This document shows positions 1-48,009 of a stretch of DNA of 64,000 bases, one piece after another. The notes under the pieces were generated by a model. The model searched no databases. It was not told the DNA's origin and saw only the letters and a program-made list of their open reading frames with translations. Numbering within the stretch: the stretch's first letter is position 1; every line of letters starts with the position of its first letter. The DNA lies in contig PXRT01000007.1 of the NCBI GenBank assembly GCA_003020925.1, positions 11,248 through 75,247 on the forward strand. The letters are read 5' to 3'. The DNA is from Halobacteriales archaeon QS_6_64_34. GTDB taxonomy: Archaea > Halobacteriota > Halobacteria > Halobacteriales > Haloarculaceae. A program made the position numbers and the translations under genes.

Positions 1-97
1 ACAGGCCGAAGGCCGAGGAGCGCAGCGAGCCCCCCGACCGAAGCCAGCCGGGGCTTTCTGGCTGGTGACAGTCTGAATCGCCTAACTAAACACCACC
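1..97 (+). repeat. Dispersed repeat family, copy A (partial, cut by window start); ends in module tggctggtgacagtctgaatcgcctaactaaacaccacc
   Basis: Positions 2-58 are the exact reverse complement of 18453-18509 (copy B); positions 59-97 match the right flank of copies B and D in direct orientation. Confidence 0.85.
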
Positions 98-148
98 GCT
101 AGCAAGCCCGCAAGAATCATACGCCGCCGTCCCGTGTGAACGACACAC

Positions 149-18452: not shown

Positions 18453-18665
18453 GAAAGCCCCGGCTGGCTTCGGTCGGGGGGCTCGCTGCGCTCCTCGGCC
18501 TTCGGCCTGCGGTGCTTACGTCGCCCGCCTTCCCGAAGCCAGCCACCGGGACGAAGTAAGCACTGCAACGAACGGGGTGAGTGAAGCGCGCAGCGAGTCG
18601 CAGTAGTCGAGCGGTCGGGGGCTTTCTGGCTGGTGACAGTCTACATCGCCTAACTAAACACTACC
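18453..18665 (+). repeat. Dispersed repeat family, copy B (inverted ends gaaagcccc/ggggctttc plus promoter-proximal module)
   Basis: gaaagcccc at 18453-18461 and ggggctttc at 18618-18626; interior shared with 47695-48009; right module shared with copies A and D. Confidence 0.85.
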
Positions 18666-31939: not shown

Positions 31940-32020
31940 GCGAAGTAAGCACCGCGCGAACAGCGTGAGTAAGGCGCGCAGCGAGCCACAGTAGCCGAGC
32001 GCCTCGGGGGCTTTCTGGCT
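31940..32020 (+). repeat. Dispersed repeat family, copy C (divergent right half only)
   Basis: gcgaagtaagcaccg...gcgcgcagcgagccacagtagccgagcgcctcgggggctttctggct aligns with the copy B right half; lost after 'tttctggct'. Confidence 0.65.
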
Positions 32021-47643: not shown

Positions 47644-47694
47644 ACACTACCTTGGTGGCCCAGGTGAATAACTCTCAGGCCCACGACAGGAGGC

Positions 47695-48009
47695 GGTCGG
47701 GGGGCTCGCTGCGCTCCTCGGCCTTCGGCCTGCGGTGCTTACGTCGCCCGCCTTCCCGAAGCCAGCCACCGGGAGAGCTCGCTCTCCCGAGCAGTCGGCG
47801 CACAGCGCCGACAACGCCCCTTTCAGTCCCACCCGCACTGATTGACCAACCGGCATGGGCGGGACTGAAAGGGGCCGACCGCTCGACGTATGAGGCGAAG
47901 CAAGCACTGCAACGAACGGAGTGAGTGAAGCGCGCAGCGAGTCGCAGCAGTCGAGCGGTCGGGGGCTTTCTGACTGGTGACAGTCTAAATCGCCTAACTA
48001 AACACCACC
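47695..48009 (+). repeat. Dispersed repeat family, copy D, with an approx. 100-bp internal hairpin-rich insertion
   Basis: cggtcggggggctcgctgcg...agccaccggga as copy B; ends gggggctttctgactggtgacagtctaaatcgcctaactaaacaccacc. Confidence 0.85.

Follow-up and report, generated by a model that had tools for sequence, protein, structure and literature searches.

Two orientations of a hairpin core between the fixed ends of a predicted IS6-type MITE in a haloarchaeon

A family of short repeat elements in a haloarchaeal genome carries its interior in two orientations between ends that keep theirs. The window analysed here, a stretch of 64,000 nucleotides (C7:11248-75247; source assembly of 2.2 Mb in 17 contigs, 80% complete), opens inside one of these elements, copy A, a 238-bp element at C7:11107-11344 whose right part is window positions 1-97. 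We found 22 two-ended copies in this genome with the core in the orientation of window copy B (standard) and 17 with it in that of copy A (inverted), and we read this orientation dimorphism as belonging to a family of transposable elements rather than to a gene-proximal switch. Because the core occurs in both orientations between fixed ends in dozens of copies, the interior has apparently been turned more than once during the spread of the family. We think it moderately probable that the core flips occasionally by exchange within the short inverted repeats that bound it and that an IS6-family transposase, acting in trans, spreads either state.

Copy A and its element family

The preliminary description of this DNA had noted that window positions 2-58 are the exact reverse complement of 18453-18509 in copy B and that the adjoining module keeps the orientation it has in copies B and D. 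Both observations held: the inverted match is exact (57/57) and was also found independently, and positions 59-97 match copy B 18627-18665 with three mismatches and copy D 47971-48009 with two, each in the same orientation. The change of partner falls inside a 14-bp box. The description had placed a 9-bp inverted sequence, ggggctttc, at the junction; an inverted repeat does bound the core there, but it is 14 bp long (box GGGGCTTTCTGGCT, window 50-63). An 18-bp junction pattern was found four times, against 0.05 expected per shuffled window. The description had further predicted an inverted right half of copy B upstream of position 1. An 8-N scaffold gap in copy A ends immediately before that position, and upstream of the gap the sequence GAAAGCCCCCGACCGCTCGACTACTGCGACTCGC is indeed the reverse complement of the copy B right half; beyond it lie a second end, GGTAGTGTTTAGTTTAGTAGAAAACGCAGAAGAGAGCC, and a target-site duplication. 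The two duplications of copy A, GTTAGCAA and GCTAGCAA, match at 7 of 8 positions. The reading of the copy A interior as inverted relative to the outer module was borne out in this way, and orientation proved dimorphic genome-wide. The features in and around the window are collected in Table 1; the left box, inverted partner of GGGGCTTTCTGGCT, is degenerate in copy B (GGCCGGAAAGCCCC) and intact in most copies elsewhere in the genome, and copy D is truncated at its left within arm 1.

Table 1. Element features in the window and immediately upstream of it (C7 coordinates refer to the contig, all others to the window).
Feature	Position	Strand
Copy A, duplication partner GTTAGCAA	C7:11099-11106	
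Copy A, right arm and L end, central part lost; upstream of window, before the 8-N gap	C7:11107-11239	
Copy A, box AGCCAGAAAGCCCC, inverted partner of GGGGCTTTCTGGCT	C7:11141-11154	
Copy A, core, left-arm part (IL), inverted orientation	1..49	-
Copy A, 14-bp box GGGGCTTTCTGGCT, putative exchange point	50..63	+
Copy A, R end of predicted IS6-type MITE, terminating in terminal inverted repeat AACTAAACACCACC	64..97	+
Copy A, target-site duplication GCTAGCAA	98..105	.
Copy B, standard-orientation core, box and R end; L end missing, left box degenerate	18453..18665	+
Relic of an older copy, only right-arm end and box	31957..32020	+
Copy D, standard orientation, longer core with central hairpin, R end present	47689..48009	+

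All over the genome the copies follow a common plan: L end GGTAGTGTTTAGTTTAGTAGAAAACGCGGAAGAG, box AGCCAGAAAGCCCC, core, box GGGGCTTTCTGGCT and R end GGTGACAGTCTGAATCGCCTAACTAAACACCACC, with the two boxes forming a 14-bp inverted pair around the core (AGCCAGAAAGCCCC...GGGGCTTTCTGGCT), unequal L and R ends and 8-bp target duplications outside. The pattern GGTRGTGTTTAGTTNNG occurs 74 times in the genome and 0 times when read backwards. We identified 42 two-ended elements, mostly of 180-373 bp, with imperfect 14-bp terminal repeats. Target duplications match at 7 or more of 8 positions in 32 of 39 oriented copies (17 of 22 standard and 15 of 17 inverted), against 28 of 1000 (2.8%) control pairs of flanks from different copies.

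The elements (425 bp or less, made of hairpins) contain no transposase gene, and the nearest IS6 genes lie elsewhere. Sister species carry an IS of about 693 bp with the same tips, 8-bp duplications and an IS6-family transposase; the genes of two such IS, L165 and L168, found in sister species only, match NF033587 with E values of 1.7e-55 and 1.4e-48. The tip asymmetry (TTT at L, TTA..GCG at R) is common to the element and this IS. Because its ends, tip asymmetry and 8-bp duplications match those of the sister-species IS, the element is, judged by its sequence, a non-autonomous, non-coding IS6-type MITE. A search of the assembly, which is 80% complete, turned up no intact cognate IS, and the sole near-complete IS6 gene in it is interrupted by a stop and has other ends.

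Other identities were considered and set aside. IS1595 was rejected as the parent IS since, in the loci of the genus that were fetched, no matching tips flank the PF12762 genes. The PATEs of Haloquadratum were rejected because they are defined (PMC3119063) by the absence of terminal inverted repeats and target duplications, whereas our element has both. As a structured RNA the element gave only microRNA-model matches far below gathering scores in an Rfam search. The exact L-end pattern had no match in a database of genome contigs, and a phage sequence search gave none either. Plasmid matches share the arm family only, with arm-type sequences present on plasmids of several haloarchaeal genera.

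The same-orientation module had been described as gene-proximal and promoter-proximal. It is instead the R end of a transposable element with a matching L end; R ends face 25 gene starts and 15 gene ends and L ends 19 and 15, at most a weak tendency.

Core orientation among copies

Scoring each junction between tail and core separately gave 30 L-IL, 28 R-IR, 18 L-IR and 17 R-IL junctions, plus two R-IL junctions that carry a 1-bp arm deletion and were left unclassed by the script. No copy had two arms of one type among the 36 with both arms readable in a manual count (p about 3e-11 under independent arm assignment), which indicates that the core turns as a block. Both orientations are also present in the sister species G013 and G007, and the few classed copies are standard in G010 and inverted in G002, G018, G044 and G006, with arms in these other species classed by eye and by first bases, a crude criterion.

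Short-read scaffolding that joined repeat halves in the wrong orientation could produce the same picture: many copies contain N gaps (8 N in copy A), contigs often end in copies, and a pair of copies on C5 may be a misjoin. However, 13 inverted copies are gap-free and 11 of these have target duplications, both junctions of copy A lie outside its gap between duplications that match at 7 of 8, and other assemblies also hold both orientations. An assembly artefact is therefore largely refuted as an explanation, and we consider it extremely improbable.

The repeat does break the assembly. Contigs C3, C4, C7, C10, C11, C13, C14 and C15 of this genome (G000) end in or beside element copies, and N gaps lie mid-element in many copies. 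The C5 pair came to light through a single copy in G007 (C47:16308-16582, L199), whose two flanks map to two oppositely oriented G000 copies 128 kb apart, C5:4685-4795 and C5:132834-133059. The apparent cause is a large inversion through recombination between copies, or else a scaffolding error or misjoin.

The history of the orientation changes was followed in a copy tree built from tails and arm ends. This tree has 11 changes (bootstrap 10-13), a count that conversion between copies could inflate, the tree being weakly resolved with few informative sites; at least three changes are forced by supported branches, and a single change was found in 0 of 200 bootstrap trees. It supersedes a first tree in which sites near N gaps were masked, leaving fewer sites, and on which copies of like orientation grouped together significantly (9 changes, a count as low in 8 of 500 shuffles). 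The rare arm allele CTGAACTCGG occurs in both orientations. At the R-end base beside the box, a change from G to T is present in 7 of 17 inverted copies versus 0 of 22 standard ones (p = 0.0013), T also being the state of a sister-species copy. The confinement of T to inverted copies means that flips have not been frequent enough to erase history; they look recurrent, not rapid.

One or very few ancient flips could instead have founded two sub-families that then spread separately, with gene conversion between copies in the polyploid cell mixing their remaining differences and so mimicking recurrence. The distribution of the R-end T and the clustering on the first tree fit such a history, as does a site-by-site incompatibility of 24% within the element, a sign of exchange or repeated mutation, and intermolecular gene conversion is efficient in Haloferax volcanii (PMC8223754). 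Yet G013 and G007 show both orientations with arms and tails that differ from those of this genome, and supported branches force several changes; we regard a founding of two sub-families as possible but rather doubtful.

A reversible switch at fixed loci, as which the cassette had first been pictured, is not supported: the T occurs only in inverted copies. The few orthologous sites compared show arm loss or replacement and no clean core flip. This pattern fits flipping that is tied to transposition, or simply a low frequency. Mosaic assembly, which had been offered as the alternative, has its share, in that exchange between copies also occurs.

Several orthologous candidates were rejected as flips. 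For G007:C47 and G000:C5:132834, the right flank of the G007 copy is found at C5:4685 in G000; the pair thus reflects an exchange of flanks between two copies and is not a clean flip. At the G007/G010 locus L211/L052, there are two elements in G007 with different ends at the target. In the pairs L285/L268 and L255/L212 the right arm is lost, and in L258/L053 it is replaced; the left arm is in place in all three and the core has not flipped.

Core hairpins and the proposed exchange

The full-length core, in the element at C2:122463-122835, consists of box, arm 1, two small hairpins, a central hairpin (CGCCCCTTTCAGTCCCACCC...GGGCGGGACTGAAAGGGGC), arm 2 and box. This is the longest copy (373 bp), with R-type ends on both sides and a 7/8 target duplication, and its folding strength reaches z = -17; a sister-species core without the two small hairpins has z = -9. 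Cores measure some 50 to 300 bp, and arm 2 looks like a reversed arm 1. Among relatives, 10 or more of the 12 terminal bases are paired in 113 of 148 distinct arms, with 80 different stems, against a mean of 5.7 of 12 when the ends of different arms are combined. The arm stems undergo compensated changes or are exchanged as modules. At the orthologous site L258 (G013) and L053 (G018), the left arm is conserved and the right arm is an entirely different but still paired stem and loop, which shows hairpin modules being replaced singly.

Further variants of this architecture were seen. In L252, L253, L254 and L231, extra small hairpins within arm loops, such as GAGAGAGC..GCTCTCTC and AAAGACGG..CCGTCTTT, look like nested inserts. 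The same core occurs at L053, L055, L230, L255 and other sister-species loci with outer ends of another kind, which have no IS6-type tips, are often symmetric (AACAGCCAGAAAG) and in some cases bear a CTAGC-like sequence some 33 nt beyond the box; these are possibly other element families sharing one core. Box and outer segment also form tandem arrays with a period of about 48-57 bp (L252:1912-2118, G107:C1:1889824-1890161, G073, G031, G087 and G054), of which the G107 array has seven boxes spaced at exactly 54 bp and the L252 array has near-identical units terminating in GCTAGC.

In the mechanism we favour, the core would occasionally invert through an exchange inside its two 14-bp inverted boxes, where a strongly foldable region has its base. 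The exchange could proceed by template switching at a hairpin or cruciform, or by short-repeat recombination. It might affect a resident copy, or just as likely arise when transposition copies the element. Copies of either orientation would then be spread by the transposase in trans. Since the transposase is expected to act on nothing but the ends, the direction of the core probably makes no difference to the element. The arms also have 12-bp inverted stems, yet their loops were almost never turned (143 to 1 among relatives), so a plain inverted-repeat rule fails to predict the level of flipping. Rare single arm loops turned between their own stems, at G000:C13:21458-21737, G000:C13:333035-333459 and L269, are a smaller version of the core inversion.

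The contrast between common core flips and rare arm flips, despite arm stems of similar length, is what a dedicated site-specific recombinase inverting the core at its boxes, in the manner of a phase-variable switch, could bring about, and the exact box is conserved in sister species and present in 14 of 121 genomes of the order (8 of 49 genera). But we saw no recombinase gene in linkage with the elements, orientation retains historical signal, gene context gives no clear sign of a regulatory placement, and structure or shared descent could also explain the conservation of the box; we think a dedicated recombinase very unlikely. Unlikely too, though a little less so, is that the box-bounded core (the box and three hairpins, with 80 different arm stems that retain pairing) forms a structurally maintained unit passed among different transposon ends in haloarchaea. 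Its inversion, specific to the boxes, would then be due to a dedicated activity or would regularly accompany replicative IS6-type transposition as a by-product, and the unit would amount to an archaeal flip-flop cassette within a transposon.

Comparison with known elements

Inverted-repeat MITEs are usually regarded as rigid passengers. Here the unequal ends provide a built-in reference, which reveals that the interior was turned, apparently several times. The family lends itself as a natural assay of palindrome-driven inversion, and of the copying errors made when IS6-type elements transpose in polyploid archaea. It helps to account for the mosaic look of such repeats and the broken assemblies around them. 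It also counsels caution, in that inverted repeat interiors should not be taken as regulatory switches without read-level evidence. Among the open-licence papers searched, we found none that reports a MITE with fixed, unequal ends and an interior that occurs in both orientations between them.

Among the closest known systems are two IS6-family MITEs, of 227 and 336 bp, mentioned in PMC7986276, which resemble our element in their IS6-type tips (GG, TGTT motif), 8-bp duplications, lack of a gene and size range. They differ in that no internal inversion is described in PMC7986276, whereas our element has a hairpin core, which in sister species also occurs without these ends. The 'SwitchRepeats' of Haloquadratum walsbyi are likewise haloarchaeal repeats in opposite orientations, found at an identical position in two strains (PMC3119063); there the strains differ by exchange of a whole repeat, or of a different one, at a single site, whereas in our case copies within one genome differ in the direction of the interior between fixed ends. 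Like our element, the Correia elements of Neisseria are prokaryotic and MITE-like and capable of inversion, reported in the review PMC10969869 as inversion of the element with possible promoter effects; in our case the ends stay, only the core turns, and there is no clear sign of a promoter role. In chloroplast DNA, small inversions flanked by hairpins recur (PMC2903610; Kelchner and Wendel 1996, cited there), and in that case too short inverted repeats enclose a segment that inverts time and again, with homoplasy as the result. Those inversions belong to single, non-mobile loci, whereas here the segment that turns is a core of about 50 to 300 bp within a mobile, multi-copy element.
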